DNA from: a virus
Virus record (IMG/VR): IMGVR_UViG_3300002835_007496
Coordinates: 1 to 26,021 of that record
DNA: 26,021 nucleotides
Strand: one strand, 5' to 3'
The notes below the pieces were generated by a model, which was given only the letters and a program-made list of their open reading frames with translations, did no database searches and was not told the DNA's origin. Positions 4,018 to 25,536 of this stretch are shown one piece after another. Position 1 is the first letter of the stretch. Each line of letters starts with the position of its first letter. A program made the translations under genes and the position numbers.

Positions 4018-7000
4018 ATGGCAACTTCAAATAAAATTTTTGTGTCACCTGGTGTATACACATCTGAACGAGATTTAACATTTGTAACACAAAGTGTTGG
4101 TGTTACTACATTAGGATTAGTAGGTGAAACTCTTACAGGCCCAGCCTTTGAACCTATTTTCATAACAAACTACGATGAATTTTCTGCTTTTTTTGGTGGA
4201 ACTACTCCTGAAAAATTTGTTAATACTCAAATTCCGAAATATGAATTAGCTTATATTGCAAAATCCTATTTACAACAGTCAAATCAATTATTTGTGACGA
4301 GGGTTTTAGGTCTTTCGGGTTATGATGCTGGCCCTTCATGGTCTATTTTGACACAAGCAAATGTTGATGGCACAACAATTAATACTACTGATACAACAGG
4401 GGTTGATTTTACCTGTAATTTTTCAGTAGATAGTTCTGGAAATGTAACTTTTACAACACCTCCAACTGCTTTTTGGAGTAATGACTTTACTACACCTTAT
4501 ACTCAACTTAATGGAACACCATCCACATACTCGTCTCAATTTACATCTTTAATTAGTTTAGTTGGTACGACCTCTTTAAATCAATCTACTATTTATATTT
4601 TTGGTACTATACCTTCTTCCGCCTACAATAGTATTTCTTCTCAATACACAGGACAAACTAATGTCTTCCAATGTTCCGGTCTAACCACTGACACTGCCGA
4701 CTTTACATCACCTGATAATGATGCTTGGTATTATGCATCTTTTGACCCCCAACCAAATTATAAGTATTCTGGATATTCATTTTACGCTTATGTAGATTCT
4801 ACAACAATTGATGGTCAAGGATACACTGGTCAAATAAGAGGTAAATCATTTACTTATTCGGGGGATTCTTTTAATCAGTATGATGGTATTGTTGTTGCAA
4901 CTTTAAGGTCTAGAGGAATTTCTAATTATGGTTCAGGTGGCGATGGTCCTGCTTATCAAATTACAGGATTGACAAGTGTTGGTTTAGATTTTACTGGTTC
5001 TTATTCTTCAGCAACACAAAATCCTTTTGTTAGATTTGCTATTTCAGGTACTACTGACGGCACTTCAAATCCTAAAAATTTCTCATTTGTTGGTTCTTTT
5101 TCAAATACAGATCAAAATTATTTACCAGCAGTTTTAGGTAGGACGAATTTTTCAAAACCTAGAACAGAAGTACCGTTATTTGTTGAAGAAATTTACCCAA
5201 CGTTGATGTCTTATGGATATAATAAAGGTTTGATTCGTGGTTTAAGGTCTGAATTGGTTGCAACCCCAGGCTTACGGTATGGCTCAACAACAAACTCTAT
5301 AGCTAATTACTTGTCTAGATATAAGACCGCAGAGTCTCCATGGGTGGTTTCCCAATTACGTGGCAGTCAAGTTGAAAGATTGTTCAGAGTAATTACAATT
5401 TCTGATGGAGATTCGTCTAATACTCAAGTTAAGATTTCCATTCAAAATATTTCTTTTACAAATAATACTTTTGATGTAGGTGTACGTGATTTTTTTGATA
5501 CCGACACAAATCCTGTTTACTTAGAAAAGTTTACAAATTGTTCTATGGACATTACATCGAATAGTTATGTCGGTGTTAGAATTGGTACGTCAGATGGAGA
5601 GTATGCTCTTGTATCCAAATATATTATGTTAGAGTTGAATTTGGACGCACCTGTTGATTCATTACCTTGTGGTTTTGAAGGCTATGTAATGAGAACTTAT
5701 TCATCCCTTACTACTTCACAACCACCTTTCCCTATTTACAAAGTAGCATACAATTATCCTGGTGAAGTAATTTATAATCCTCCATTTGGAATCACTAGTG
5801 GACCTGTCGCTGGACGAGGATTATCTAACGCGGTTGAAAGTACTGGCGATAAAATTCGTTCTACATTTTTGGGGATTTCTTCACAAATTGGTTATGATCC
5901 TGATTTTTTCCAATATAAAGGTCAGAAACCACCAACTTCTTCGTCACAACTATGTAACTCTGAAGAATTCGCCCCTTGGGACTATATCACACCAGGATTC
6001 CATATGGATTCAGGTGCCACTGTTGTTTTAATAACTACAGGTCCTACTTCAGGTACCCCCGCCTTTGAGTGTGGAGATGCTTCATTTAGAAATGATCCAC
6101 AAAGTGCCGAAAACCCATATTTCTCTATTCAAGCTCGTAAATTTACTTTCTTGGTTCAAAAAGGGTTTGATGGTTGGGATATTTATAGAGAATACAGAAC
6201 AAATGGAGATGGTTTCATTGTTGGTGGTACTGGATACCAACGTGGTGCTTGTTCATCTTTAAAATATCCCTACGCTACTGGGTGGGGAGCTTTTAAACCT
6301 ATCACTTTTGGTAATACTAGTGAGTATGCTAATACAGACTATTATGCGTATCTTATGGGAATTCAAACATTTGCTAATCCAGAGGCCACAAATATTAATG
6401 TGTTTGCGACTCCAGGTATAGACTATGTTAACAATGCTAATCTTGTTGATGATGTTATCTCTATGATTACATTTCAAAGAGCAGACTCAATTTATATTGT
6501 AACCACACCTGATTGTAATGTATATTTACCAACAAATACTGATAACTTTATTTATCCGACTGAGATTGTTGATAATTTAGTAAATTCAAACATTGATTCA
6601 AATTATACGGCAACGTACTATCCTTGGATTTTGGTAAGAGACACTGTAACTAATACTCAAATTTATTTACCACCTACTAATGAAGTTTGTCGTAATCTTG
6701 CCTTAACCGATAACGTTTCTTTCCCATGGTTTGCAACTGCTGGATATTCTCGCGGATTAGTTAATGCGGTAAAAGCTAGGAAAAAATTAACCCAAGAAGA
6801 TAGAGACACTTTGTATCAGGGTCGTGTCAATCCTATTGCTACATTTTCTGATGTTGGAACGGTTATTTGGGGTAACAAAACGTTACAAATTGCGGATACC
6901 GCTTTGAACAGAATCAATGTTAGAAGGTTATTGTTACAAGCTAGAAAACTTATTTCCGCAGTTGCTGTTAGACTATTGTTTGAACAGAATGATGCTAAGG

Positions 7001-7218
7001 TTCGTCAAGATTTCTTAGATAGTGTAAATCCAATTTTGGATGCTATTAGGAGAGACCGTGGTTTGTATGATTTCCGTGTAACAGTAAGTAGTTCTGTAGA
7101 GGATCTAGATAGAAATACGTTGAGTGGTAAAATATATTTGAAACCTACTAGAGCACTCGAATTTATTGATATTGAATTCTTGCTTACCCCTACAGGTGCT
7201 TCTTTTGAAAATATCTAA
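4018..7218 (+). CDS. Contractile tail sheath protein (T4 gp18-like)
   Basis: 1066 residues. The N-terminus carries the sheath hallmark SPGVYTSERD (residues 10-19), then a GLVGET...GPAFEP stretch. The C-terminal ~130 residues (GRVNPIATFSDVGTVIWGNK, then helices with RRLLLQARK and a terminal beta segment) match the conserved sheath domain that links neighbouring subunits. The middle (about 110-750) is much longer than in T4 gp18 (659 residues) and rich in Ser, Thr, Gly and aromatic residues. It probably forms extra surface domains on the outside of the tail. The start is chosen at the only ATG matching the family N-terminus, preceded by an A-rich leader. Sheath polymerises around the tube and contracts to drive DNA delivery. 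The downstream tube gene supports the call. Confidence 0.93.
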   Translation: MATSNKIFVSPGVYTSERDLTFVTQSVGVTTLGLVGETLTGPAFEPIFITNYDEFSAFFGGTTPEKFVNTQIPKYELAYIAKSYLQQSNQLFVTRVLGLSGYDAGPSWSILTQANVDGTTINTTDTTGVDFTCNFSVDSSGNVTFTTPPTAFWSNDFTTPYTQLNGTPSTYSSQFTSLISLVGTTSLNQSTIYIFGTIPSSAYNSISSQYTGQTNVFQCSGLTTDTADFTSPDNDAWYYASFDPQPNYKYSGYSFYAYVDSTTIDGQGYTGQIRGKSFTYSGDSFNQYDGIVVATLRSRGISNYGSGGDGPAYQITGLTSVGLDFTGSYSSATQNPFVRFAISGTTDGTSNPKNFSFVGSFSNTDQNYLPAVLGRTNFSKPRTEVPLFVEEIYPTLMSYGYNKGLIRGLRSELVATPGLRYGSTTNSIANYLSRYKTAESPWVVSQLRGSQVERLFRVITISDGDSSNTQVKISIQNISFTNNTFDVGVRDFFDTDTNPVYLEKFTNCSMDITSNSYVGVRIGTSDGEYALVSKYIMLELNLDAPVDSLPCGFEGYVMRTYSSLTTSQPPFPIYKVAYNYPGEVIYNPPFGITSGPVAGRGLSNAVESTGDKIRSTFLGISSQIGYDPDFFQYKGQKPPTSSSQLCNSEEFAPWDYITPGFHMDSGATVVLITTGPTSGTPAFECGDASFRNDPQSAENPYFSIQARKFTFLVQKGFDGWDIYREYRTNGDGFIVGGTGYQRGACSSLKYPYATGWGAFKPITFGNTSEYANTDYYAYLMGIQTFANPEATNINVFATPGIDYVNNANLVDDVISMITFQRADSIYIVTTPDCNVYLPTNTDNFIYPTEIVDNLVNSNIDSNYTATYYPWILVRDTVTNTQIYLPPTNEVCRNLALTDNVSFPWFATAGYSRGLVNAVKARKKLTQEDRDTLYQGRVNPIATFSDVGTVIWGNKTLQIADTALNRINVRRLLLQARKLISAVAVRLLFEQNDAKVRQDFLDSVNPILDAIRRDRGLYDFRVTVSSSVEDLDRNTLSGKIYLKPTRALEFIDIEFLLTPTGASFENI

Positions 7219-8049: not shown

Positions 8050-8095
8050 TAGGAGAATATTCGAAAAAAAAATAAAGTAAATAGAAAAATTTTTC
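8050..8095. other. Convergent gap with small palindrome
   Basis: The 44-bp gap between the phosphatase-like gene and the minus-strand endonuclease gene. It holds an AGGAG just after the phosphatase stop with no gene to serve, and a perfect 12-bp palindrome GAAAAATTTTTC at 8084-8095 that overlaps the endonuclease stop. The palindrome could be a weak bidirectional terminator, but such A/T palindromes are common in AT-rich DNA. The orphan AGGAG may be chance, or a relic of the layout before the endonuclease gene arrived. Confidence 0.2.
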
Positions 8096-9737
8096 AACGC
8101 TCAAATTTCTTCAAAAAAACAATGGTACCACAATCATAAATTCTTTCAATATTTCGAGAAACCATAATTTGTTTTTCGGTTAACTTAATATCAAAACCTT
8201 CTTTTTTTAATTTTTCTTTTCTAAAATTCATTCTATGTACTCTTTTTTTTCCAATGATATACCAATAATTTGGTTTATTAATATTGGTCTGAGTAAACCC
8301 TAGTTTACAATACAAATCCCCCTGACTCCAACGACGATCCGCATAACTAATTATTTGAGTTGGGTGATAGTTTTTTATGAAGTGATTAAGTAATTTTTCA
8401 GCCCCCCCTACAACTATTGTATCTGTTTTATTACAAAACCTACTTAATTCATATCCACTATGATGTGAACCGATACCTAGTCTTGGTTTTGTAAAGGTCA
8501 TCAAAGATACTAATTCTTGGTTATAGTATAAACCTAAATTAATTTTTGAATTTATTTTTCCTTGTAAATGGTGTGTGTCCAAAAAACTAGACGATGTTTG
8601 GGGGTCTACATTTTTAATAACACACTTTCTTGCAAACACTCTGTCCAAGGTAAGACCTAACAAATTTTTTAATTTGGACTTAATAATGTCTTTTTTGAAT
8701 AACCATTCGTCTTCAAAGATGTGAATTAGTCGTATATTATTTTGTTCACAAATTTGGGTTTTATTCAAATGATAATTCTTTCCGACCTTATTTTCAGAAT
8801 GCCAATACAGACCATTAAACTCAATTGCCAGATTATGTGAAGGTATGAAAATATCTATTTGATATGGTGGAATTATGGATAGTGATGATGTGATTGTCTG
8901 AACACCACAAGAAAGTAAAAATTGATTGATTTCTTTTTCTATGTTGGATACACTAGATGAACAGTTTGGACACCCATGCTTGGATAAATGATCGTAGGGG
9001 AGTTGATCGAATATCCCGTGTGTTGGACAAATTATTTTAATCTTTGTGTGTGAGTTATGATATTCCACAAGAGAATAATCATATTTGTCAGAATGAATTT
9101 TTTTAGCTCTTTCGATAAATTCAGATTCATTTAAACTAAACTTTTCTTTCTTTCGGTCAATTGAACATTTTTTACAACCTTGCCCGCACAAGTGTTTCGA
9201 AGGGGTTTGTTCAAAAACTCCATGTTTTGGACACAAGATTTTTACATTTTTTGTAGATTTGATAAAATGCACCAATGAATAATCATAATAAGTTCCGTGT
9301 TTTTCAATTGCTTTAGTAACAAAAGTTTCAGTGTTGGAACGGGGTTTACTTCTACTACAAGAAGGACAACCCTGACCAACCATATGTTGAGAAGGAAGTT
9401 TTTCAAAAATCCCATGAACAGGACATATAATTTTTACCTTGGTTTCTGAATTAACATAATTAGTCAATGAGTAGTCATATAGATCCCCAAACCTTTTTTT
9501 TACTTTGGTTAAAAACTCTTGGGTATTTGTTACCCTGTCTAAACAAAACTTACAACCATTTTTACCACGCAAATGTTCACTAGGTAATTGCATAAAACTG
9601 TAATTGTGTAAATTACAAATTAATTTTACTTTAATAGTGGGGTTTACATAATCAACAAATTCATAATTGAATTTATCAGAATATAATTTTTTTGATTTTT
9701 CAATAAATTTTGTTCTGTTGTAAAATATTTTAGGCAT
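8094..9737 (-). CDS. Free-standing homing endonuclease, zinc-module plus Vsr/EDxHD-like nuclease
   Basis: 547 residues, the only minus-strand gene here. Four tandem treble-clef-like modules fill residues 1-260. The last three match YDYS...KIxCPxHGxF...GCxxC closely, with ligand sets C105/H108/C124/C127, C169/H172/C188/C191 and C237/H240/C256/C259. The first (C41, H44, C62, C65) is more diverged. The nuclease core follows: QIDIFIP (Asp295), AIEFNGLYWHSE (Glu306, His313), a second His (323), then IFEDEW (Glu342, Asp343). This resembles the very-short-patch-repair fold of EDxHD homing endonucleases such as I-Bth0305I. A C-terminal domain (FARKC, GLYYNQELVSLM, YADRRWS) is typical of this family. 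It probably cuts DNA at a specific site and spreads its own gene. It lies between sheath-side and tube genes, against the direction of the operon. Confidence 0.9.
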   Translation of the reverse strand: MPKIFYNRTKFIEKSKKLYSDKFNYEFVDYVNPTIKVKLICNLHNYSFMQLPSEHLRGKNGCKFCLDRVTNTQEFLTKVKKRFGDLYDYSLTNYVNSETKVKIICPVHGIFEKLPSQHMVGQGCPSCSRSKPRSNTETFVTKAIEKHGTYYDYSLVHFIKSTKNVKILCPKHGVFEQTPSKHLCGQGCKKCSIDRKKEKFSLNESEFIERAKKIHSDKYDYSLVEYHNSHTKIKIICPTHGIFDQLPYDHLSKHGCPNCSSSVSNIEKEINQFLLSCGVQTITSSLSIIPPYQIDIFIPSHNLAIEFNGLYWHSENKVGKNYHLNKTQICEQNNIRLIHIFEDEWLFKKDIIKSKLKNLLGLTLDRVFARKCVIKNVDPQTSSSFLDTHHLQGKINSKINLGLYYNQELVSLMTFTKPRLGIGSHHSGYELSRFCNKTDTIVVGGAEKLLNHFIKNYHPTQIISYADRRWSQGDLYCKLGFTQTNINKPNYWYIIGKKRVHRMNFRKEKLKKEGFDIKLTEKQIMVSRNIERIYDCGTIVFLKKFER

Positions 9738-9798: not shown

Positions 9799-10287
9799 AT
9801 GGCAGATTTACTAATGAAAATGCCGGTTCCATACGAACCGAAAAGAACTAATAGATTTGTGGTTAGGTTTGACTCAACTCTAGGAATTAACGAGTGGTAT
9901 GTTGAAACCGCTGGAAGACCTAAAATAGATATTACATCAGTTGCGATTCCGTTTTTAAACACTGAAACCTATGTGGCTGGAAGATTCAAATGGAATGCAA
10001 TTAGTGTTGTGTTTAGAGATCCAATTGGACCTTCGGCAACACAAGCCCTTATGGAGTGGGTACGATTACATGCGGAATCTGTCACAGGTCGTATGGGATA
10101 CGCCGCAGGATATAAAAAGAATGTGGATCTAGAAATGTTAGACCCAACGGGTGTAGTGGTTGAAAAATGGATATTGGAGGGTTGTCAAATCGTTTCAGCA
10201 GAATGGGATCAATTAAATTATGGTAATGATACATTAGCTAAAGCAACACTTAACTTACAACCTGATCGTTGTATTCTAGTGTTCTAA
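9799..10287 (+). CDS. Tail tube protein (T4 gp19-like)
   Basis: 162 residues, almost the length of T4 gp19 (163). It has the family pattern of an N-terminal segment with NRFVVRFD, a central FKWNAISVVFRDP strand pair, then MLDPTGVVVEKWILEGC and a final beta segment ending DRCILVF. The subunits stack as hexameric rings to form the inner tail tube through which DNA passes, inside the sheath encoded upstream. The ATG is preceded by an A-rich leader and a TATAAATA box rather than a Shine-Dalgarno. It is separated from the sheath gene by the phosphatase and endonuclease genes, whereas in many T4-like phages sheath and tube genes are adjacent. Confidence 0.92.
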   Translation: MADLLMKMPVPYEPKRTNRFVVRFDSTLGINEWYVETAGRPKIDITSVAIPFLNTETYVAGRFKWNAISVVFRDPIGPSATQALMEWVRLHAESVTGRMGYAAGYKKNVDLEMLDPTGVVVEKWILEGCQIVSAEWDQLNYGNDTLAKATLNLQPDRCILVF

Positions 10288-10774: not shown

Positions 10775-11524
10775 ATGGACGAAAATTTAATAAAATATGG
10801 ACAAACAGATTTTACCTTACCACACGATGTGGTAAAATTACCGAGCGGTGGTAAATTCTATTCAAATAAAAAAAAGACAGTGAAGATTGGATACTTAACG
10901 GCTAGCGATGAAAATCTTCTTATGGGGTCAAATCCTAATGATCTAATCCTTTCTTTAGTTCGGAACAAACTTTATGAACCAGATATTAAACCAGAAGAAC
11001 TCCTTAATGGAGATTTAGAAGCAATATTAATTTTTTTAAGAAATACTTCGTTTGGTTCTGAATATACAATAAATAGTGTAGACCCACAAACAAATAAAGT
11101 TTTTCAAACTACTATAAATTTAGAAGAATTAGATTTACGAATACCTAATGTTGAATCAGATGAAAATGGAACATGGACAGTAACTCTACCCAAGAGCCAA
11201 AGTCAGGTTACTTTAAGACCATTAACATATGGAGAACTTAATGAAATTAACAAACAGGCAGACACATATCCACAAAATAGAGTTGCTCCAAAAATGACTT
11301 GGAGATTACAAAAACAAATAATATCAGTAAATGGAGATAATACTCCTCAAACTATAAATAAATTTATTGAAACAATGCCAATTCTAGACTCAAAGTTTAT
11401 TCGACGTTTTATTGACGAGAATGAACCTAAAATAGAATTAAAACGAATAGTAACAGCCCCGTCAGGAAGTAAGGTAGATGTAGAAATCGCCTTTGGGGCG
11501 GAATTTTTTCGTGTTTTCTTCTGA
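10775..11524 (+). CDS. Tail assembly chaperone / baseplate hub protein gp26-like (zero-frame product)
   Basis: 249 residues. The opening, with KLPSGGKFYSNKKKTVKIGYLTASDEN split over residues 21-47, and the later VTLRPLTYGELNEI (about 148-161) resemble T4-like gp26-type proteins found just before the tape measure gene. Positionally it matches the lambda gpG class of tail chaperones, which coat the tape measure during assembly. The zero-frame protein ends with FGAEFFRVFF and TGA at 11522-11524. An overlapping frame continues openly for another 40-plus codons, suggesting a longer frameshifted product, as in gpG/gpGT. The ATG has no Shine-Dalgarno. Similarity is from pattern memory; a profile search is needed to choose between gp26 and generic chaperone labels. 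Confidence 0.65.
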   Translation: MDENLIKYGQTDFTLPHDVVKLPSGGKFYSNKKKTVKIGYLTASDENLLMGSNPNDLILSLVRNKLYEPDIKPEELLNGDLEAILIFLRNTSFGSEYTINSVDPQTNKVFQTTINLEELDLRIPNVESDENGTWTVTLPKSQSQVTLRPLTYGELNEINKQADTYPQNRVAPKMTWRLQKQIISVNGDNTPQTINKFIETMPILDSKFIRRFIDENEPKIELKRIVTAPSGSKVDVEIAFGAEFFRVFF

Positions 11525-13911: not shown

Positions 13912-16900
13912 ATGCCAAGTCAGTTAACATTTACCGCCACTGAAAGTTTAAGGAATAGTTTATTAGGTCGAAATTTAAGACCGTATAATAAACAAAATAG
14001 TGGTACTGTATATCCGTCACGAACACAATACCAACCAAACTATAGCAATGTAGTTGATTCTCCTGACATACTTATAGACCGATCTCCATACTCAAAGAAC
14101 TTAAATGTATTAAATCAATTTGGGCCAGATGGTGGATACAACTATGATATTTCGGATATCAACACAACACTACAAAACAAACCGAATGAGGGACCATATG
14201 GACCATATCCACCGTACACAAACGAACTTCAAGCGTATTCACAGACATTTCAAACTAAAAGTAGAATAAAAAATGAATATTCACCGAGAGACGGATACCA
14301 ATATTATGATGTAGGTGATTTTGTGAGAGTTCAAAAAAACTCATCATATTGGGACCCACCTAGTTTCAGACCCTCAACATATTCACCATACAGTATTTTA
14401 CTATCTAATGTACCTGTTGGGTCAAATGGATCAATACTCGAAGATTCTGAATTAGCGCAATTAGGAGCACAATCTTTACAACAACTATTTAAAGACACTA
14501 TAGATAGGAATTTAGAAACTGAAACAACTGGTAGATTAAATATTTTAAATGGATCTAAAGATCCAGTTAACCTAGCGCTTATCGTATCTGGAAAAAGACC
14601 TCTAGCATTTAGTGATTGGAAAATTACGGCTGGAGGAGATATTGGAGCTCGTGCTCAAAGTTTAGTACAACGGATTGCAGGGTTTACTTTTCCATCTTCA
14701 CCTATACCAGGAGATATTCTACCAACAAGAACTTTTAACTCGACACAATCTGCGGTCATTGCGGCAGATGATGGTAGAAGAGGTTCTGTGTTTGGTTTAT
14801 TTGGAACTAGACCGACAAATCCATCTCAATTACTTTTAGATTACACTGGAAAAGGACAAAGAGAACAACTTACAAATAGTTTAGTATTTAACAGGTTTAG
14901 ACCAAAATATAATACAGGTGGGACTGGAGTCTTATCAGCAATTGGTCAAGCAATATTTGGGGGTTTTGGGGATGACCTTGGAGAAGGATTATACTATGTA
15001 GGAAGTCCAATGAACGAACCTGGATATATGAAGTCACCCCCAGGTGAAGTACCAATCAATGAATTTGGAGAACAAGTCATAGCACCAGTATATGGTCCAG
15101 ATGTTTTGGGGATAGCGTATGAAGGCAATGATCTGACAGATAGATTTCAATTTGGTTTTAGAGGTGAAAACTACATAGATCAAGGAAATCTTATGGGTGG
15201 ATTTACTTGGATGAAAGAAGAATTCATCCCCGAGGCAGGTAAAGGGGTTGGACCAAATGGAACTTTATCGAAGGAAGATGAAGACTTTCCAATGATTTCT
15301 AACGATTTTTTTGATAGTCAATCATCTGACTTTGACTTTAAACCAGGATCCATATTATTCGACACACAAAGACTTATTGATTCAACACCAAAAGGAGGTG
15401 CAAGGTACAAACATGTTGGAAACGCAATTAACCAAACGAGCAAAATATTCAATGATGGGTATAAACAAATAACTAAAGGTTCGAGAGTATTAAGATATAC
15501 TCCAGAGTTAGAAAATAGAGTTATTGAATATTGTAGAGTTTTCACAAAAGATAGACCATACTTGTCATTTACTGATCTTCAAAAGTCTGACGGGAACATT
15601 CGTAAAATGGACTATTCAGTTTTAAACAATACGTTTAATGTAAACATAGCCCCAGAAAAAGGGGGGACTTCAACATATGCAAATGGTAAAGCAAAAAAAT
15701 ATATGTTTTCTATTGAAAATTTAGCCTGGAGGACATCATCTAGACCTAATTTAACATATGAAAGTTTACCAAAATGTGAACAAGGACCAAACGGTGGGAG
15801 AATAATGTGGTTTCCGCCATACGATCTTGAATTTAGTGAATCTATAAGACCCGATTTTACCCCAACAACTTTTTTGGGTAGACCTGAACCCGTCTATACT
15901 TATAAAAACACAACGAGGGGGGGAAATCTTAAATGGAAAATAATTGTTGACCACCCATCGATAATGAATTTGATAGCACAAAAAGTTTTGGAAAATAAAA
16001 CAAATACTGAAGCCGATCAAATATTAAATTCGTTTTTAGCTGGTTGTAAAAAATATGATTTATATGAATTAGCGGCAATTTATAATACAGTGCCTCTAGA
16101 TCAATTACAATCTACGATTAGAATATTGAATGAACCAAATATCACAGATGAAATTTATTCGGAGGCATATACTTCACTTATACCAGATCCACAAAATATA
16201 TCATTAGAAATTCCTCAACAACCACCGACACCCTCTCTTGAAGAGTATCAAAATTTTGGGTTTTATTTTGATAACGATGTTCCACCTAAGTCTGGAGAGA
16301 TATCAAATTATGAAACATATTATTCATTATATGTTACACAAAGCAATAAAGACAAATATGAACGACTTGCAACAACCAATCAAAAAGGACCTGTATCTGA
16401 ATTTTTCCCCAAAGTAGTAGAATCTAATTTTTTGAAAACAAAAGAATTATGTGAAAAAATAATTAAGATTTTAACAGAAGATTCAACAGCAACAATAAAA
16501 ATGGAGATTGTATCTTTTGCCTCATCACCAGGTACTATAGCATATAATAAAAGTTTATCGGAAAGAAGAAACACATCTGTACTTAAATTTTTTGAAGCAT
16601 TTTCATCAGCATCAGGGAAACAATTAAAAGATTTTATAGGGTCTAGGCTAACAATAACCTCAATTGCAGAAGGAGAAGAAGGGCCACCAACACAACCTAA
16701 GTACATAGACAATACAATGGGACAAAGTGTGAGTTGTGGTGAAAATTTACTTGGAAATTCAAAAATATATTCTTATAATGCTATGGCTTGTCGAGTTACT
16801 AAAATAAAAACAATTAGTGTGACATCTAACCCAACACAACCTCAACCTAGTAATAATAATCCAAATATAACATTAATAGATGATGGTAAACAACCAAGTG

Positions 16901-18780
16901 CCCCGAAAAAAGAAAAAGAACCACAGTCCTTCACAGAAAAAATCTCAAGTAAAGGAGCGACTAAAAAAATATTAAGAATGTTACTTTCTGAATGTGATTA
17001 TTTTGAAGTACTTAAAGATACTGATTTTTTTCTTTATAACTCATTAAAAAATAAACTGAAATATTTTTCTCCAGCGTTCCACTCAATGACACCCGAAGGT
17101 CTTAATGCTAGATTAACATTTTTACAACAATGCATGAGACCTGGGGACACTATACCAACAATAGGACCTGACGGTCAAAAAATAATGAACGAAGCACTAA
17201 ACACTGCTTTCGGTGCACCACCAGTATTAGTAATTCGTGTTGGAGATTTTTATAATACTAAAATTATACCAACAAATCTTTCTTTACAATATGAGAAAAA
17301 TCTCATAGATATGAATCCAGAGGGTATTGGTTTACAACCTATGATAGTCACAGTAAGTCTAGATTTTAACTTCATAGGTGGATCAGGATTAAAAGATCCA
17401 ATCGATACATTACAAAATGCACTTTCATTTAATTACTATGCAAATACCGAAGTTTATGATGAAAGAGCGGAAGAAACTGACACATCATTGAACAAATTAG
17501 ATGAACAAATTATACAAAAAATTCAGAATTTACAACCATTGGTGGGTGTGAATAATACAGATAAAAATCCAAAAGTTTTATTTGGAGAAACAATTGGTCA
17601 AATAGAACAATCTGGACAGACCGTAAGTGGTATCACTGGAGAATTAAAATATGAAAAAATATACAATGATCTCATTCAACAAACACAAAAATATTTTACA
17701 ACAACTTTAAGTTTTTATCAAAATATTTTAAACGTATACGGATATGGTTTGATACCTATGTTATCCTCAATAAGAGGAACATTATTTAACGATAATTCAA
17801 ATCCACAACCGACACCTGGTCCAAATAGATCATATAATCTAGGGAAAATCGTCGGGGTTGATACACAAATTTATGGAAAACCAGCGTTATATTGTGATAA
17901 TATTAGATGGGCTTTTAAATCTCTAAATGAATATATTGACAATGAAGTTATTGGAATCTTCAAAACATACACACCACAAGGAAATTCATATACAACAGGG
18001 CCTGGTGAAATGGACACAATTACAATAACACAACCACAAAAAAATATTTTCAAAGAAAATTATAAAAGATTTTTACAAGGTTATGAACAAACTTTTCAGA
18101 ATAAATTAACAGAATTTATTCAACCACTTATAACAGAACAACAAAATTTAGTATTTATTATAGATAAACTTAATTTTGTATATCAAAATAATTCAGACGG
18201 TGTTGTTAAAAGTCCAAATGAAGTTGAGATTTATGAACTAACTCAACAATTACCTAATTATTTACAGATAATACAACAGAATTTACAAAATTTTATAGAT
18301 ACACAAGACGTATATGGATTGTATTCGGACAATAGATATCAATATCCATCTAGTGGAAATTTTGATACAAGTGGTTTAACAGGGTTTTCGGCTTTGGTAT
18401 CACCAGAACAAAAAACTGAGTATTTTTTAATGTCTAAACTATTGAGTGACAATAACGAGGCTAGACAATTTTTAATAGACCTTACAGCAAATTTAGATAC
18501 GTTTACGAAACAAATAGTAACAAATTATTATTCAAACTTTTTGAAAAATGTTTATGATGGTTGTAATACGGCAGGAAAAAATTTACTTGTTAAGTATAAA
18601 GAAGAGTTGGGGAAACCCTTTGTAATCTACACACCTGAAATTGATACAAATAATGTTAAAGCCTCTTTTCAACAAACACTACCTAATTTACCGTTAGAAC
18701 AATCTTTACGTGATTTATTTGCAGCTAAAAATGATACGGAATCGTATAATCCCTTTAATTTGAAAAAGAAATTTAACTAA
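13912..18780 (+). CDS. Giant tube-cap/baseplate structural protein with an internal OmpA-like domain
   Basis: 1622 residues. Residues about 200-290 (LQQLFKDTIDRNLE, FSDWKITAGGDIGARAQS) and about 620-680 (GRIMWFPPYDLEFSES, FLGRPEPVYTYKNTTRG) look like a tail-tube-cap or baseplate protein of large T4-like phages. Residues about 784-970 form an OmpA/MotB-like peptidoglycan-binding domain: FYFDND (784-789), then SFASSPGTIAYN...LSERR (868-886) with the conserved Asn879 and LSxxR Arg886. Residues about 1050-1190 (FHSMTPEGLNARLTFLQQC, IRVGDFYNTKI, NPEGIGLQPM, FIGGSGL) resume baseplate-type sequence. The rest is helical and polar. The start follows the tape measure stop by 41 bp. The stop overlaps the next ATG (TAATG). 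The exact T4 counterpart (gp48/gp54 type) is inferred. Confidence 0.7.
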   Translation: MPSQLTFTATESLRNSLLGRNLRPYNKQNSGTVYPSRTQYQPNYSNVVDSPDILIDRSPYSKNLNVLNQFGPDGGYNYDISDINTTLQNKPNEGPYGPYPPYTNELQAYSQTFQTKSRIKNEYSPRDGYQYYDVGDFVRVQKNSSYWDPPSFRPSTYSPYSILLSNVPVGSNGSILEDSELAQLGAQSLQQLFKDTIDRNLETETTGRLNILNGSKDPVNLALIVSGKRPLAFSDWKITAGGDIGARAQSLVQRIAGFTFPSSPIPGDILPTRTFNSTQSAVIAADDGRRGSVFGLFGTRPTNPSQLLLDYTGKGQREQLTNSLVFNRFRPKYNTGGTGVLSAIGQAIFGGFGDDLGEGLYYVGSPMNEPGYMKSPPGEVPINEFGEQVIAPVYGPDVLGIAYEGNDLTDRFQFGFRGENYIDQGNLMGGFTWMKEEFIPEAGKGVGPNGTLSKEDEDFPMISNDFFDSQSSDFDFKPGSILFDTQRLIDSTPKGGARYKHVGNAINQTSKIFNDGYKQITKGSRVLRYTPELENRVIEYCRVFTKDRPYLSFTDLQKSDGNIRKMDYSVLNNTFNVNIAPEKGGTSTYANGKAKKYMFSIENLAWRTSSRPNLTYESLPKCEQGPNGGRIMWFPPYDLEFSESIRPDFTPTTFLGRPEPVYTYKNTTRGGNLKWKIIVDHPSIMNLIAQKVLENKTNTEADQILNSFLAGCKKYDLYELAAIYNTVPLDQLQSTIRILNEPNITDEIYSEAYTSLIPDPQNISLEIPQQPPTPSLEEYQNFGFYFDNDVPPKSGEISNYETYYSLYVTQSNKDKYERLATTNQKGPVSEFFPKVVESNFLKTKELCEKIIKILTEDSTATIKMEIVSFASSPGTIAYNKSLSERRNTSVLKFFEAFSSASGKQLKDFIGSRLTITSIAEGEEGPPTQPKYIDNTMGQSVSCGENLLGNSKIYSYNAMACRVTKIKTISVTSNPTQPQPSNNNPNITLIDDGKQPSAPKKEKEPQSFTEKISSKGATKKILRMLLSECDYFEVLKDTDFFLYNSLKNKLKYFSPAFHSMTPEGLNARLTFLQQCMRPGDTIPTIGPDGQKIMNEALNTAFGAPPVLVIRVGDFYNTKIIPTNLSLQYEKNLIDMNPEGIGLQPMIVTVSLDFNFIGGSGLKDPIDTLQNALSFNYYANTEVYDERAEETDTSLNKLDEQIIQKIQNLQPLVGVNNTDKNPKVLFGETIGQIEQSGQTVSGITGELKYEKIYNDLIQQTQKYFTTTLSFYQNILNVYGYGLIPMLSSIRGTLFNDNSNPQPTPGPNRSYNLGKIVGVDTQIYGKPALYCDNIRWAFKSLNEYIDNEVIGIFKTYTPQGNSYTTGPGEMDTITITQPQKNIFKENYKRFLQGYEQTFQNKLTEFIQPLITEQQNLVFIIDKLNFVYQNNSDGVVKSPNEVEIYELTQQLPNYLQIIQQNLQNFIDTQDVYGLYSDNRYQYPSSGNFDTSGLTGFSALVSPEQKTEYFLMSKLLSDNNEARQFLIDLTANLDTFTKQIVTNYYSNFLKNVYDGCNTAGKNLLVKYKEELGKPFVIYTPEIDTNNVKASFQQTLPNLPLEQSLRDLFAAKNDTESYNPFNLKKKFN

Positions 18781-19100
18781 TGCAAACCTACTATAACAGA
18801 TACCAAGAATTTTTAATAAATGGTGAACAAACCGTAGTACCTTTTGTTACTTTGCCTACAAAAGGAACTGATATTACTTATGTTTATAAAATGGGAGTCA
18901 GTAGACTTGATAAATTATCACAACAATTTTATGGTTCACCTTTTTTTGGTTGGTTGATCTTACAGGCTAATCCACAATTTGGGGGTTTAGAATGGAATAT
19001 TTCTGATAATGCAATAATACGAATTCCATTTCCTTTGGTGTCTTCATTACAAGATTATAAAAATCAATTAAATACTCATTTCTTATATTATGGTAGATAA
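18780..19100 (+). CDS. LysM/gp53-like baseplate protein
   Basis: 106 residues, starting on the last base of the preceding stop (TAATG), so translation is coupled. The central region YVYKMGVSRLDKLSQQFYGS, then FFGWLILQANP and a closing strand AIIRIPFPL, follow the LysM-like fold used by T4 gp53-type baseplate wedge proteins, in which the xLDxLSxxFYG helix is typical. The chain is shorter than T4 gp53 (196 residues), keeping essentially only this core. It probably bridges baseplate subunits; peptidoglycan binding is possible but less likely. Its end overlaps the start of the giant hub-like gene by 11 bp. Confidence 0.8.
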   Translation: MQTYYNRYQEFLINGEQTVVPFVTLPTKGTDITYVYKMGVSRLDKLSQQFYGSPFFGWLILQANPQFGGLEWNISDNAIIRIPFPLVSSLQDYKNQLNTHFLYYGR

Positions 19101-22100
19101 CAGTATGGATGGTGATATTTTCATCGAAGTATCAGAAAACAATATTTTTTTAATTGATCCTAATAGAGTTCTTACTAGTGACGGTAATATTAAAGAAAGA
19201 AATGTTAAACATGAAAATTTAATTATGTATGCAAACTTGGAGGCTAAAATTTATCCAAGAACAAAACTTCTAGTTGGAGCACCAATCGACGACGCAATCC
19301 AAAATCAACAGATTGCTAGTTTTAATTTCTTAAGTCCTGGAGGAGAAGCATTTATGAATAATAAATATGTAGACGAAATTACAGGATTTAATACACTAGA
19401 TGGGAATGGAGTTAATCAACCATCGTTTAACATAAAGAGGACTGACAAATCCGACAATTTTTATTTAGCACAAAATACTAAAAATAGAAAAGACACAGGT
19501 TTATTAGGTATCGAAAGTATTAGCATTAAAAACACTAGATCATTTACCCCGACAGTTGACATGGTCTTAATTGATGTAATGGGAAGAGCTTTATTTGAAA
19601 AAGGTGAAAATTCCGAATATGCTTTTTTCTTTAATCTACCATATCCTATGTTTTACCTAACTCTAAAGGGTTATTATGGAAGAGCGATTAGATATGAACT
19701 CATATTAACTAATTTCAGTGCGGCGTTTGAAAGTGGTACTGGTAATTATAGGATTAACCTAAAATTTTATTCCTACAAATATACAGTTTTAGCCGAAACA
19801 CCATTGGGAGCTTTGTATGCTCTTCCATTTATGTACACACAGGAATATCAATTAAATCCTGTACAACAACCAACAAGTGTTGGGGCGGCACAAACATCAA
19901 TAGGAAATAATCTATTGACAACAATTAATGTAAAAACTTCTAGAGGTCGTGACTTTTTAAAACAAATTTACCAAAGATACAAAAACGGAGGGTTACTCAA
20001 AAAAGATTTCCCAGAACTTACATTTGCTGAATTTTTAGCGGCTATTCAAGGACTTGAGAAATTTTTAGAGCAATCATATGGATTAGCAGATTTCTCACCA
20101 TTAGATGATGGGGACACATATTTTAAATTGTTAAACGATTACAGAGATAGTATAGTAAATCAGAGTGATTCGTCTAGTTGGTTCAACATGAATGTTGATA
20201 CGTCAAAACCATATGTTCTCAACACAGATCAAGACACTGAAGAAATTTTACTAGCTTGGATTTTTAATGAAAATAAAAGAAAAAACAAACAAGAAGCTCT
20301 AAATGGTTTAGGCGAACTACAAAAAATTGTAAATAATTACAATAAAACATTAGGGTCGAATAAAACATATGGTATCAATGGGAGTTTTGTGATAGATAAC
20401 GTAAGATTTTCTAGTGGTGTTAAATCGATTACAAAAATTGACGCTAAAATAAGTCCTGATGTTTCATCGATTGAATATAACACTTTTGTAAAACAACTCA
20501 CCCCCGACAATATTAATTGGGAGGCCACTTTTGAAGTGAGAAATAAAAGAAAACCACTACTTGGTGAAGTAGATATTTTAAGAGTAAAGGAAAGTGAATT
20601 TTTTCAAACAGTTTTTAGTCAAAGTCAGTTAAATATACCTACGTTTCCAACATATAATTTTGTATTTGAAGGTAAAAAAAATTTTTCAGGCATCATTGAT
20701 CAATGTTTTAAAGAATTTGCAGAACAACGTCTGTTAGTAACAAATGAGTTAAATAATTTCTTAGCAAAAAAAATTGAAGGGCCAACCGGTCTAGGTTTTA
20801 AACCAACAATTAGAAATGTTATGGCAATTATTTTTGCGTCAGTTGAGGCTTTTTATAGATTGATGGATCAAGTTCACACCGATGCCTGGAATAAAAGAGA
20901 TAGTCAAATCAGAAAAAGAGCTATTTTTACAGATGATAATCCAGATAACCCCCCACTATCTTCGACAGGGCCAGTTTATCCTTGGCCACTTTACTTAAGG
21001 AAAGATAAAGATGGAAAATATGAAGTCAGATATCCAGGGGAATATTCTGAAGTTTTTTTAACTCGAGGATCTGATTTTTCAATCTGGCCTGAAATTGAAT
21101 TTGTGGAGGAATATATTAAAGGACTACAAAATAGTCAAGAAAGTTTGTCAAATATTTCACCAACACAATCAGATTTAGATGGTAGTGGAGTAATAAACAG
21201 AATTACAGTAAATGGTGTAGAATTCCCGACTAGTAATATAATTTTGAGTGATTATCAAGATGTAAAATTTATTTATGAAATTTATGAACGATTTATTCTA
21301 CCAGCTTTTTATGATAGAATATTGAATGAAAATTCTGATTCAATTACAGTATATTCCGATATTGCAAATATGGAAGTTACGAATATAAAAAGTTCTTTAA
21401 ATGGATACTCAAGTCCAAATTTGATAAAAATTCTAAAAAATTTTGATTTAAATTCTGACACTTTTCTTCCTACACTAAGAAGAATATCAAATGATGGTGT
21501 TGGTTTATCTTGGCAACAATTTATTCGTGGTATTTTTACATCTGAATATATGAGGTTAATAACAAAGGATGACTTTGCAATTTTGAGTAACAATACAATT
21601 TCATCGGCTAGTGTTAACTCAAATAAAAACCCAAAAATATTGACTAGACTTGGGCAATATGTAAAAAGTCCTAAATCGACAACAACAGATTTCTTAGATT
21701 TATTACCTTTTAGAGATACTAATTGGGTTTCTGAAAATATGGTAAACATAAAAAATACAACAAATAATTTATATGACACTACAACTAGTTTGTTTTTAAA
21801 CAACGATCTAAGTTATATTACAAACTTTGAAAGATCATCTAATTACGACGTTAACTTTAACAGACCGTTTGTCAACAATTCTTATTTAAAAGTTGACGCT
21901 CCAAATATTCCTAATAATATTCCCTATCAAGCAAATGGTAATAATTCTGCCGTAGGATTTAATGTATTCTATGAAACAAAAATTAATACGAATTCTAGAT
22001 CGATAACTGAAGGACTTCTAAATTACTCAAATAAGACTGGTAATCTTACAGCAAATCAAACTGTATCAATAATCAATACTCCATTTTTTGTAAACGCACT

Positions 22101-25100
22101 TATGGAAGGTGTTGAAAACGAAAAAAATAAAGAATTATATCCTTACATTGCGGCCGCATATCTTTTTATAAATGGTTTACCATTAACTACTCTGAGAGAA
22201 AAATATAAAAATATTGGAAATATTACTAGTGAGTTGAATTACATGTTCACTACACTTACTAAATTTGGTGCCGTACACAGAGTTCCATACTCATGGATTC
22301 TAAAAATGGGATCAGTATGGTATAGGTATAAAAAATTTGTTAATGATGGGGTTGATATTCTGACTAATTCTTGGAAAAGTATTCCGATTCAAGAATATTA
22401 CGATCCGACGACACTTGATTTATCCAAAGAATATAGTTTTACAAACTATCAAAACAAAACTGTAAATTTTGTAGCTCAAAAAAATATACTTGGTACGTCA
22501 CCTTCTATTTCCTATACATCAGTTAAAAATGTAGGATTTTACCCAAAAGTAATTAATGATTTATTTTTTTTTATTACTGGTCAAAATTTAATGACAGGTT
22601 ACACATCAAGCGACATACAAAAAGCAACTTTAGATGGATTAAGAATTGGAAGTACAAATTGTAAAATAGATCTACCAGAAGGTTTTGATCCCACATCACC
22701 AAGTAGATCAATGAGATACAACGGCTGGTTTGTATCGTTTGATACCAATCAATCACCCAAATTTGGGACAAATTTATTTGGTAAAACAATTATTTTTCCA
22801 TCTTTAGGAACAAACAATAATCAAGTATTTTTTGAATGTTTTGAACAAGCATCACAAGGAATCCAAATGACACAAGAACTTTTTCAAAACAAGGCAGTAG
22901 ATGACGGTTCAGTTAGGTTTTTTTGGGATGCAGCTAACTTTGGGTACTTCGAAACACCAAGTGTAAATAAACCTAATTATGACGAATATTTAAATATTTT
23001 AAAACCATCACAAAGTAACAGTGAAGCATTTACCCTGAGTGCTCAATATTCTAAAATAGAAGAGATTTTTGGCGTTTTCAAAACAGAAATTTTAAATTTG
23101 TTTGAAAATGAATTTTTAGAATTTTCAAAATCTAAAAATAGTTTATCACCAGAAAACATAGATCCGACCTATATTACATTTAAAAATTTTCAAAACGTAT
23201 TCACCAATTGTTTAATTATTGATCAAGTCCCAAATACGTTAGACGAAAATAATTATGTCAACACCTGTGCTAGAAATCAAAATGTCTCAATAACTAATAA
23301 GTTAAATTCTTTTTTAAATTTTGATGTGGCATTTAAATTTGGTAATCCAGGAAATTTTGATAGAAAGATTTTCGGAAGTTTTACCACACTTCCATCATTT
23401 AGAGTTTTTGATGAATTTACTTACAAACCATATGTACTTGGATCTTTACCAGGTGATTCATTACAGACAAGTTTGATTGATTCGCAATTTAGATACCCCA
23501 ACGCTTGGACAACTTTAAGACAGTATGTGGGTTTTTCGACAATAGAAAATGTACAATATTCTTCTTCAGGAAGTTATATTACTGATTTTTTTATAACTAT
23601 GAATGTTGAATTTGAAAGTACAAATATAATCAATTTAGCTCAATTGATAAAAATTTTTGCAACGCAAAAAACCCTTAATAATGGAAATTATGATAGAGGA
23701 AACTTTATTTTAGACATTAATGATTTTTATTTAGAAAAGAACACATCGATGGAACTAGTAATAAATGAAACTATGTCTAGTTTGAGAAAGTTATTACCAC
23801 AAGTACAGGATACTAACACAAAACCAATAAGAACTTCGATAGATGGTATGGTACCAAAATTAGAGCTATGGAGTACCTTCAAAGCGTTTAATGACAAATG
23901 GATTTCAGGATCAGATTTTCAAGAAAAATTATTATTTGAACAAGTTGTGTTTTTGGATAGAGCAAATAGAGATATTGGGGATTTAGTGATAATTGATGTT
24001 TTCGCATTGAATCAATATGCCTCATCATTTAAAAACATGTCTTCTAGAGTTATTGATGTTATTAGTAAAATTATTGTTGATAATAAATTTTTAATGATGC
24101 CTATGCCCGCATACATTAATTTTTGGGGACAAGGTCAGGTTAAAAACGGAATAACACCAAAAGCACAAAGTGTTGAAGATGTTGCAAATAATTTATTTGG
24201 AGTTTATAATGATGTAGATACAAGATATGCTGAACCTACATTTTTATGTTACTATGTTGGTAATCCAAGTGAACATTTAGTGATGGGAGATACTAATGTA
24301 AATGGATATCGAACCGATTCATTCGACTTTGGAAGACCCAATCCTCTTAACTACACACTAAAAGATAAGTCAGATTGGAAAAACTCTAATATGGTTGTTG
24401 GGTTTAACGTAGATTTTGGAACTAGAAATCAAGCAATTTTTACTTCAATACAATTAGATCAAAATTCTGCGGCCGCCACAACTGAGGCTAACAGAGTAAT
24501 TACGGAAATTGCGGCACAAGCTGGAGGAACAAAAACGTCGTTACAAACTGTAAGTTTGTACAACTTATACAAAGTCCGTAGTTATACTGCAAGAATAGAA
24601 TGTATGGGTAATATGATGCTACAACCAACAATGTATTTTAATTTAAAACATGTTCCAATGTTTACTGGTCCATACATGATTCAGTCAGTAGAACATAAAA
24701 TAGAGGCGGGCCGTTTCACTACTTTTTTTGAAGGAGTGAGAATGCCAATATATTCTATTCCTATGATAGATAAACAACTCATATCAATTAACCAATCAAT
24801 TTATAATAATTCTTTGTCTGAAATTAAAAGAAAAAGAGAAACTAGTTCGAGTAACTCCGTAACATCCAATATAATATCAATAGGAAATTCAGTTCAAACA
24901 AACGTTTCGTTTCAAAAAACAGATCCAGGACTGTGTTTTAATTCTATTTTAACCGCTAAAAATCCTTATAACACTTTTGAAGGGACAGAAGGAATTATAA
25001 CGTCAATTCCTTTGTCAAGTTTTGCTGACAAATTAAAGTCAATATCAAATAAACCAACACGTATTATGACTTTTTTTACCGCATATGTGAATGGATATAA

Positions 25101-25536
25101 AGATGAAAAGATAAACAGTTTTAATTATGATTTAGGGGGGACACCATTAGCTGGGTATGAAATACCAAATATAGATTATGGCCAATTAAATGTTAATTTA
25201 GAAAAAAAATATATGTGTAAAAGGTTTCCTGACGGAAAAACTTACCCTTTTGCTACTTTTCTAGATTTCGATAAATCAATCAATTTTATCAAAACTAGAT
25301 TTTCTGGAAACATACTTAATAAAAATAAGAATATATCTTATAATGGGTTATGGAATAATGATGATGATATAGTTGCGAATTCGATAATACTATGGGTAAA
25401 TTATTACCCACAAAAAAGATTCCAAAATGAAGAAGAGTATTCAAAATGGGTCACAAATAATCAGAATATGATCGAATCATTGAAAACAATATCTAAACAA
25501 TCATTAGAACAAATGAAAAAATTTGGATTGATTTAA
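19090..25536 (+). CDS. Giant baseplate hub-like protein
   Basis: 2148 residues from 19090; an in-frame ATG at 19105, just after the preceding stop, is an alternative start. Residues about 137-250 (LLGIESISIKNTRSFTPTVD, LPYPMFYLTLKGYYGRAIRY, AAFESGTGNYRINLKF) form a conserved-looking beta domain. Residues about 1822-1892 (RSYTARIECMGNMMLQPTMY, MFTGPYMIQSVEHKIEAGRF, then FFEGVRMP) resemble the end of gpD/gp27-type hub proteins. These form the ring at the tube tip that carries the spike. A separate C-terminal ~200-residue domain (about 1947-2147) follows a low-complexity Ser/Asn linker and could be a peptidoglycan hydrolase-like domain, but no catalytic motif is clear. The length is several times that of T4 gp27. 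Gene position after tape measure and LysM gene supports a hub role. Confidence 0.6.
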   Translation: MVDNSMDGDIFIEVSENNIFLIDPNRVLTSDGNIKERNVKHENLIMYANLEAKIYPRTKLLVGAPIDDAIQNQQIASFNFLSPGGEAFMNNKYVDEITGFNTLDGNGVNQPSFNIKRTDKSDNFYLAQNTKNRKDTGLLGIESISIKNTRSFTPTVDMVLIDVMGRALFEKGENSEYAFFFNLPYPMFYLTLKGYYGRAIRYELILTNFSAAFESGTGNYRINLKFYSYKYTVLAETPLGALYALPFMYTQEYQLNPVQQPTSVGAAQTSIGNNLLTTINVKTSRGRDFLKQIYQRYKNGGLLKKDFPELTFAEFLAAIQGLEKFLEQSYGLADFSPLDDGDTYFKLLNDYRDSIVNQSDSSSWFNMNVDTSKPYVLNTDQDTEEILLAWIFNENKRKNKQEALNGLGELQKIVNNYNKTLGSNKTYGINGSFVIDNVRFSSGVKSITKIDAKISPDVSSIEYNTFVKQLTPDNINWEATFEVRNKRKPLLGEVDILRVKESEFFQTVFSQSQLNIPTFPTYNFVFEGKKNFSGIIDQCFKEFAEQRLLVTNELNNFLAKKIEGPTGLGFKPTIRNVMAIIFASVEAFYRLMDQVHTDAWNKRDSQIRKRAIFTDDNPDNPPLSSTGPVYPWPLYLRKDKDGKYEVRYPGEYSEVFLTRGSDFSIWPEIEFVEEYIKGLQNSQESLSNISPTQSDLDGSGVINRITVNGVEFPTSNIILSDYQDVKFIYEIYERFILPAFYDRILNENSDSITVYSDIANMEVTNIKSSLNGYSSPNLIKILKNFDLNSDTFLPTLRRISNDGVGLSWQQFIRGIFTSEYMRLITKDDFAILSNNTISSASVNSNKNPKILTRLGQYVKSPKSTTTDFLDLLPFRDTNWVSENMVNIKNTTNNLYDTTTSLFLNNDLSYITNFERSSNYDVNFNRPFVNNSYLKVDAPNIPNNIPYQANGNNSAVGFNVFYETKINTNSRSITEGLLNYSNKTGNLTANQTVSIINTPFFVNALMEGVENEKNKELYPYIAAAYLFINGLPLTTLREKYKNIGNITSELNYMFTTLTKFGAVHRVPYSWILKMGSVWYRYKKFVNDGVDILTNSWKSIPIQEYYDPTTLDLSKEYSFTNYQNKTVNFVAQKNILGTSPSISYTSVKNVGFYPKVINDLFFFITGQNLMTGYTSSDIQKATLDGLRIGSTNCKIDLPEGFDPTSPSRSMRYNGWFVSFDTNQSPKFGTNLFGKTIIFPSLGTNNNQVFFECFEQASQGIQMTQELFQNKAVDDGSVRFFWDAANFGYFETPSVNKPNYDEYLNILKPSQSNSEAFTLSAQYSKIEEIFGVFKTEILNLFENEFLEFSKSKNSLSPENIDPTYITFKNFQNVFTNCLIIDQVPNTLDENNYVNTCARNQNVSITNKLNSFLNFDVAFKFGNPGNFDRKIFGSFTTLPSFRVFDEFTYKPYVLGSLPGDSLQTSLIDSQFRYPNAWTTLRQYVGFSTIENVQYSSSGSYITDFFITMNVEFESTNIINLAQLIKIFATQKTLNNGNYDRGNFILDINDFYLEKNTSMELVINETMSSLRKLLPQVQDTNTKPIRTSIDGMVPKLELWSTFKAFNDKWISGSDFQEKLLFEQVVFLDRANRDIGDLVIIDVFALNQYASSFKNMSSRVIDVISKIIVDNKFLMMPMPAYINFWGQGQVKNGITPKAQSVEDVANNLFGVYNDVDTRYAEPTFLCYYVGNPSEHLVMGDTNVNGYRTDSFDFGRPNPLNYTLKDKSDWKNSNMVVGFNVDFGTRNQAIFTSIQLDQNSAAATTEANRVITEIAAQAGGTKTSLQTVSLYNLYKVRSYTARIECMGNMMLQPTMYFNLKHVPMFTGPYMIQSVEHKIEAGRFTTFFEGVRMPIYSIPMIDKQLISINQSIYNNSLSEIKRKRETSSSNSVTSNIISIGNSVQTNVSFQKTDPGLCFNSILTAKNPYNTFEGTEGIITSIPLSSFADKLKSISNKPTRIMTFFTAYVNGYKDEKINSFNYDLGGTPLAGYEIPNIDYGQLNVNLEKKYMCKRFPDGKTYPFATFLDFDKSINFIKTRFSGNILNKNKNISYNGLWNNDDDIVANSIILWVNYYPQKRFQNEEEYSKWVTNNQNMIESLKTISKQSLEQMKKFGLI

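Follow-up and report, generated by a model that had tools for sequence, protein, structure and literature searches.

An OmpA-type domain nested in a tail-tube-initiator-like baseplate protein of uncultured phages

Tail-tube initiators sit inside the baseplate, and how contractile tails cope with the cell wall once the outer membrane has been pierced is understood mainly for phages that carry a tail lysozyme. OmpA domains, for their part, are already known in phages, as separate proteins, and in secretion machines, as anchors to the wall of the machine's own cell; in the open-access literature we found no description of an OmpA domain in the baseplate of a phage or of a contractile injection system. 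Two bacterial domains serve as references here. In TagL, the beta1-alpha1 and beta2-alpha2 loops enclose a buried diaminopimelate (DAP), which contacts Asp486, Asn494, Leu497 and Arg501, and the residues N494, L497, S498, R501 and A502 are needed for wall binding (PMC8253398). In the OmpA of A. baumannii, whose structures 3TD3 and 3TD5 contain glycine or the stem pentapeptide, Asp271 and Arg286 bind DAP, as recounted in PMC5974059.

The window, that is, the whole stretch of DNA analysed here, is the entire 26,021-base virus record IMGVR_UViG_3300002835_007496 of IMG/VR. One of its ORFs (13912..18780, + strand) encodes a protein of 1622 aa that we describe as a tail-tube-initiator-like baseplate protein on the basis of its fold matches, and that belongs to a large family: at least 594 coding stretches in IMG/VR match it, 80 of which were kept. 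We are nearly certain, at the level of fold and as judged from predicted structures, that a loop of the initiator's tube-like fold carries a complete OmpA-type domain. What this domain does is a different matter, for which we present the competing explanations along with the evidence that bears on them.

Place in the tail gene cluster

The 1622-aa ORF sits in a tail cluster, with sheath, tube and T4_baseplate genes upstream and a gp53-like gene directly downstream. The tail sheath protein (4018..7218, +; 1066 aa) matches PHROG 23 with E 3.2e-58, the best-matching part being only its last 290 or so residues (aa 774-1064); the tail tube protein (9799..10287, +) matches PHROG 4542 with E 1.8e-28, and a hub protein of the T4_baseplate family, assigned in tail context (10775..11524, +), matches PF12322 with E 7.6e-13. 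The gp53-like baseplate wedge protein (18780..19100, +; 106 aa) matches PHROG 7145 with E 0.0039 and T4 gp53 itself weakly (E 0.27); by analogy with T4 gp53 it may be of the LysM type. Its gene follows directly on the initiator-like gene in 146 of the 149 relatives for which there is enough sequence.

Several other features of the record deserve mention in their own right. A 2148-aa protein encoded at 19090-25536 has no Pfam or PHROG match, and its C-terminal part looks hub-like by eye. Between the sheath and tube genes, on the opposite strand (8094-9737, -), lies a gene for a 547-aa free-standing homing-endonuclease-like protein (PHROG 559, E 5.7e-144; DUF723). The adjacent ORFs 2-853 and 855-2531 both contain long Thr/Pro repeats (TPTxTPT), a pairing that is unusual for a phage tail region, and the second also matches Cohesin (PF00963, E 3.1e-7, above the cutoff). 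These Thr/Pro-rich genes adjoin one for a 420-aa protein (2533-3795) that matches a PHROG protease family with E 8e-25 and has a GDSGS serine-protease-like motif. Finally, a minus-strand ORF at 16380-16712, which overlaps the OmpA-like domain, is taken as a mechanical ORF.

The initiator-like fold and its insert

No initiator-family profile in PHROG, Pfam or NCBIfam matches the 1622-aa protein, and the likeness to initiators comes from structure prediction. An AlphaFold2 model of aa 490-1300, built from 56 relatives, has a mean pLDDT of 61 and a pTM of 0.35 overall, with moderate confidence in the halves that flank the insert. By VIA-align, model residues 101-681 (aa 590-1170), which extend on both sides of the insert, match contractile baseplate chains; at this moderate confidence of the model, the flanking halves give Z 11.3 with PVC (6j0n_b), 11.1 with AFP (6rao_G), 10.3 with P1 (9ay5_G), 9.3 with T4 (5iv5_BE) and 9.2 with cyanophage A-1(L) (8kea_R). 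These chains are tail-tube-initiator-like, going by our naming of the individual AFP and T4 chains, and gp48-type tube caps are among the matches of the model in a Foldseek comparison with viral models. From conservation and VIA-align, the N-terminal half of the initiator (tube-like) fold covers approximately aa 590-765 (15679..16206, +) and holds the invariant motifs GGRIMWFPPYD and GRPEP...TY, and the C-terminal half covers approximately aa 1008-1168 (16933..17415, +) and includes FHSMTPEGLNARLTFLQQC and GDFYNTKI. Since the matches to the initiator fold lie to either side of the insert, this fold encloses the OmpA domain. A first-pass annotation, made from the DNA sequence, had already placed the domain between two baseplate-type regions, which can now be specified as the two halves of a tail-tube-initiator-like fold.

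The insert itself is delimited, by Pfam, by profile matches to PDB sequences and by the model, as an OmpA-like domain of aa 776-976 (16237..16839, +; predicted fold aa 769-971). The HMM search against PF00691 that the annotation had proposed gives a divided answer: there is a match (aa 842-928, E 9.6e-4 with the whole protein, E 6e-5 with the domain alone), but the score, 19.9 bits for the whole protein and 23.8 for the domain, stays below the curated cutoff of 27.2, which one relative, L130, exceeds with 30.3 bits. At E values up to 0.01, PF00691 matches 38 of the 58 close-relative domains and 30 of the 63 distant inserts. The insert of L130 (L130:3502-4227) has GHTSKVG, near the canonical GHTDxxG, and lies on a long branch in the tree of the flanks.

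The sub-cutoff Pfam score of the window's own protein speaks for a fortuitous hit on a short helix motif, an explanation that we consider refuted and to which we give practically no weight. A profile of the 58 domains finds 34 PDB sequences, nearly all of the OmpA/Pal/YfiB/PomB type (best E 8.9e-7), L130 scores above the cutoff, reversed inserts used as a control produce no significant match, and two independent models have the OmpA fold. In the first of these, the OmpA part (aa 769-971) reaches a pLDDT of about 90-95; the best PDB matches of the model by Foldseek are PorE, Pal and OmpA, with PorE 6TOP in first place, and VIA-align gives the domain Z 10.5 with 6TOP and Z 10.4 with A. baumannii OmpA 3TD3/3TD5 (rmsd 2.2-2.3 over 119-121 residues). 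The second is a model of a far-clade insert, L086, binned with Prochlorococcus, in which PF00691 finds no match: it gives Z 10.9 with 3TD3/3TD5, and OmpA/Pal/MotB-type chains fill its top 50. The un-iterated profile of the phage domains also reaches bacterial OmpA domains, with E down to 1.9e-8. The OmpA/MotB pattern that the annotation had read in 16255-16830 (aa 782-973) is thus borne out both by the profile matches and by the superposition on OmpA structures that it had suggested.

The crevice and the family

The beta1-alpha1 loop carries the motif FYFDNDVP (aa 784-791; 16261..16284, +), in which Asn788-Asp789 are among the ten most conserved positions, and the beta2-alpha2 crevice motif is SFASSPGTIAYNKSLSERRNTS (aa 868-889; 16513..16578, +), with Ser871 at the canonical Asp site followed by Asn879, Leu882 and Arg886; both had been quoted correctly in the earlier reading, as FYFDND (aa 784-789) and SFASSPGTIAYNKSLSERR (aa 868-886). 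A conserved Gly-Glu follows beta3 (aa 921-922; 16672..16677, +), each residue being present in 72 of 73 close relatives, and the same count holds for each member of a conserved pair before the last strand, Cys942 and Cys960 (16735..16791, +), the latter in AMACR (aa 957-961), which possibly form a disulfide. This Cys pair is seen in many distant inserts and is absent from the Prochlorococcus-type clade.

The Asp of the TDxxG motif had been described as replaced by Ala/Ser. Its loss is confirmed, but the assignment has to be made more precise: the Asp has become Ser871, and it is the preceding Thr that has become Ala870. Among the aligned inserts, the canonical Asp position holds Ser in 111 of 125 and Asp or Glu in none of the 125. 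The Asn and the Arg of LSxxR are kept, as had been stated, R886 in all 125 and N879 in 108 of 111, and no relatives lacking the Asn/Arg pair were found. When 160 positions are ranked by conservation over the 91 rows that remain after dropping those more than 70% identical, the top ten are R886, N879, Y785, L882, N788, F786, A870, S871, D789 and G868 (for this last, most rows have Gly, but the window protein has Ser). All ten fall in motifs that line the DAP crevice in solved structures.

Ser871 stands 8 residues before Asn879 and 15 before Arg886, exactly as in Asp486-Asn494-Arg501 of TagL, and the second interval is also that from Asp271 to Arg286 in A. baumannii OmpA. The phage counterparts of the TagL contacts Asp486, Asn494, Leu497 and Arg501 are S871, N879, L882 and R886; of the five residues needed for wall binding in TagL, four (N494, L497, S498 and R501) are matched, by N879, L882, S883 and R886, and Ala502 is not kept (N/I887). 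The first-loop Asn-Asp is kept in the phage domains, and the bacterial domains compared are without it. In a domain that has otherwise diverged strongly, it is thus the crevice that has been preserved best, with a consistent change at one ligand residue.

The family is large yet absent from the cultured-phage collection that we searched: a second IMG/VR scan, with a far relative as query, gave at least 597 stretches (79 kept), and four family proteins compared by tblastn with 50,697 phage records found no relative. Six loci turned up when 84,980 genomes of bacteria and archaea were scanned; they lie in a Prochlorococcus single-cell assembly and in MAGs assigned to Bacteroidales, Paludibacteraceae, Holophagaceae and Mycoplasmatota. 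The Mycoplasmatota have no cell wall; since the sequence so binned is a MAG contig of 8 kb, we draw no inference on its host. Microcystis phage Mel-JY01 and a 484-kb uncultured phage have the sheath in common with the window phage; as candidate relatives they were set aside, the regions read giving only a faint match to the left flank (E 5.5e-6 and 1.6e-4, respectively), and the OmpA insert was not found in those regions.

We could delimit the insert in 159 relatives, which gave 127 distinct inserts; 124 of these contain the domain as judged by an iterated profile. The three others (L101, L115 and L151) are three separate tips in the tree of the flanking halves. The inserts of L115 and L101 measure 250 and 223 aa, close to the normal size, and their domains may only have degraded beyond detection; that of L151 is short (138 aa). 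Loss or degradation in three tips indicates that the domain is not indispensable for building the baseplate. These three losses, and the strong divergence outside the crevice (a mean column identity of 12% across distant inserts), are what one would expect if the insert were a functionless leftover, brought in by an old recombination with a host's OmpA gene and kept for no other reason than that it folds and does no harm. We consider this quite improbable. A relic would not keep the domain in nearly every distinct insert, with an invariant Arg and crevice positions filling the whole top ten, and the fact that conservation within the domain is highest in the crevice argues against an idle remnant.

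Where the domain came from is suggested by its motif. At the T-D site the phage proteins have A-S followed by a Pro-x-Gly pattern (SFASSPG in the window, GYASPQG and similar in relatives), and the host form is GYASPEG. Both canonical GHTD and GYASPEG OmpA domains occur in the Bacteroidales genomes to which the loci led, and in the two GYASPEG examples (L179 and L181) the OmpA domain forms the C-terminal part of an outer-membrane barrel protein. A tree built from 45 phage and 17 bacterial domains gathers the phage domains in one group (99/85), which adjoins the GYASPEG rows with a very short branch (97/74), these being two host rows only. The resemblance to ASPEG-type members proposed in the first-pass annotation is therefore upheld, the domain being most like the GYASPEG OmpA type of Bacteroidales outer-membrane proteins by sequence motif and in this small tree. 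A recent acquisition in the window phage only is ruled out, the domain being family-wide and the phage domains forming a single group; the tree is compatible with one old acquisition, without amounting to proof. In the open-access literature we found no paper on peptidoglycan binding by ASPEG/GYASPEG-type domains.

Possible wall docking and comparison with known systems

We propose the following scenario. The 1622-aa protein would be the tail-tube initiator of a contractile-tailed phage, a ring of the gp48/gp54 or eCIS-initiator type at the junction of tube and hub; with six copies of the initiator, as in the solved baseplates, every tail would bear six OmpA domains arranged in a ring. The domain's crevice, which lies between its beta1-alpha1 and beta2-alpha2 loops, would still bind a ligand with a carboxylate group, and the likeliest candidate is a stem peptide of peptidoglycan, bound by its diaminopimelate end. 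Binding would take place as contraction drives the end of the tube into the periplasm, where the domain would presumably be exposed. The effect would be to steady or position the tube end at the wall.

Because all ten of the most conserved positions, including the first-loop Asn-Asp, lie in the DAP-crevice motifs, we favour a ligand-binding crevice, whose ligand is probably the stem peptide, over a purely structural role, and we give this preference about an even chance of being right; the first-pass annotation had named both possibilities, a baseplate that could grip the cell wall and a domain turned purely structural. It is a real objection that no member has an equivalent of Asp271, which with Arg286 is reported to bind DAP, and the conserved Arg and Asn could instead serve folding or a protein partner. 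Indeed, the OmpA domain may by now be a purely structural protein-protein module, its crevice holding a side chain or the tail of the gp53-like wedge protein, the hub or the tape measure, in the way that LysM folds serve structurally in gp53 and in eCIS baseplates. We take this to be a serious contender, though somewhat under an even chance. The universal loss of the canonical Asp, the strictness with which the gp53-like gene follows and the position of the domain inside the initiator fold all fit such a role, and an invariant partner in the virion would also produce a highly conserved crevice. Against this, the three relatives that lack the domain, or have it degraded, keep the rest of the initiator, which is harder to reconcile with a load-bearing contact, and the conserved residues are those of the wall-ligand set and form no new surface patch.

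The full form of the ligand-binding reading, namely an uncultured lineage of contractile phages with a ring of wall-binding OmpA-type domains whose pocket has been rebuilt (Asp to Ser, with an added Asn-Asp) and engages the target's peptidoglycan during injection, we would put only slightly short of even. If true, docking of a contractile tail on the wall would be a step without description in the literature searched, where an OmpA domain inside a tube initiator or baseplate is itself undescribed. That the tube initiator of a widespread, uncultured group includes a wall-binding fold raises the question of whether the tube docks on peptidoglycan. The core of the baseplate would then offer two examples of such a fold, LysM in gp53-type proteins being the first, and the relatives with and without the domain offer a natural series for comparison.

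How, then, does this protein compare with what is known? With tail-tube initiators (the T4 gp48/gp54 type, the PVC/AFP chains and P1) it shares the fold of the flanking halves, at Z 9-11, and with the initiators of contractile systems the gene order of tape measure, initiator, gp53-like and hub-like genes; it differs from known initiators in its length of 1622 aa, in its nested OmpA domain, in its long N- and C-terminal extensions and in having no sequence-profile match. With the OmpA C-terminal/Pal/MotB domains of PF00691 (A. baumannii 3TD3-3TD5) the models share the beta-alpha-beta fold, at Z 10.4-10.9, and the Asn, Leu, Ser and Arg of the DAP crevice stand at identical spacing. Unlike those domains, the phage domain has Ser for Asp in nearly all members and Asp in none, an extra Asn-Asp in the first loop, and a long beta3-beta4 region with a Cys pair, and it sits in a tail protein. 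As the canonical DAP ligand Asp is missing throughout and binding is a prediction here, we do not file it as a canonical DAP-binding OmpA domain. The nearest bacterial neighbours, the GYASPEG domains of Bacteroidales, likewise have Ser at the Asp position, Ala before it and the LSxxRA helix, but in the two host examples compared the domain is fused to a barrel, whereas in the phage it is nested in a tube-initiator fold.

PHROG 26111 and the OmpA protein of Cellulophaga phage phi17:2 are, like the present domain, encoded by phages, but they are separate proteins outside the initiator, and PHROG 26111 is filed under moron/membrane. The T6SS accessory protein TagL and PorE of the T9SS likewise belong to machines for secretion or injection in which an OmpA domain holds the wall. 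These anchor the machine to the cell that produces it, whereas the phage domain, being part of a virus particle, would meet the wall of the target cell.
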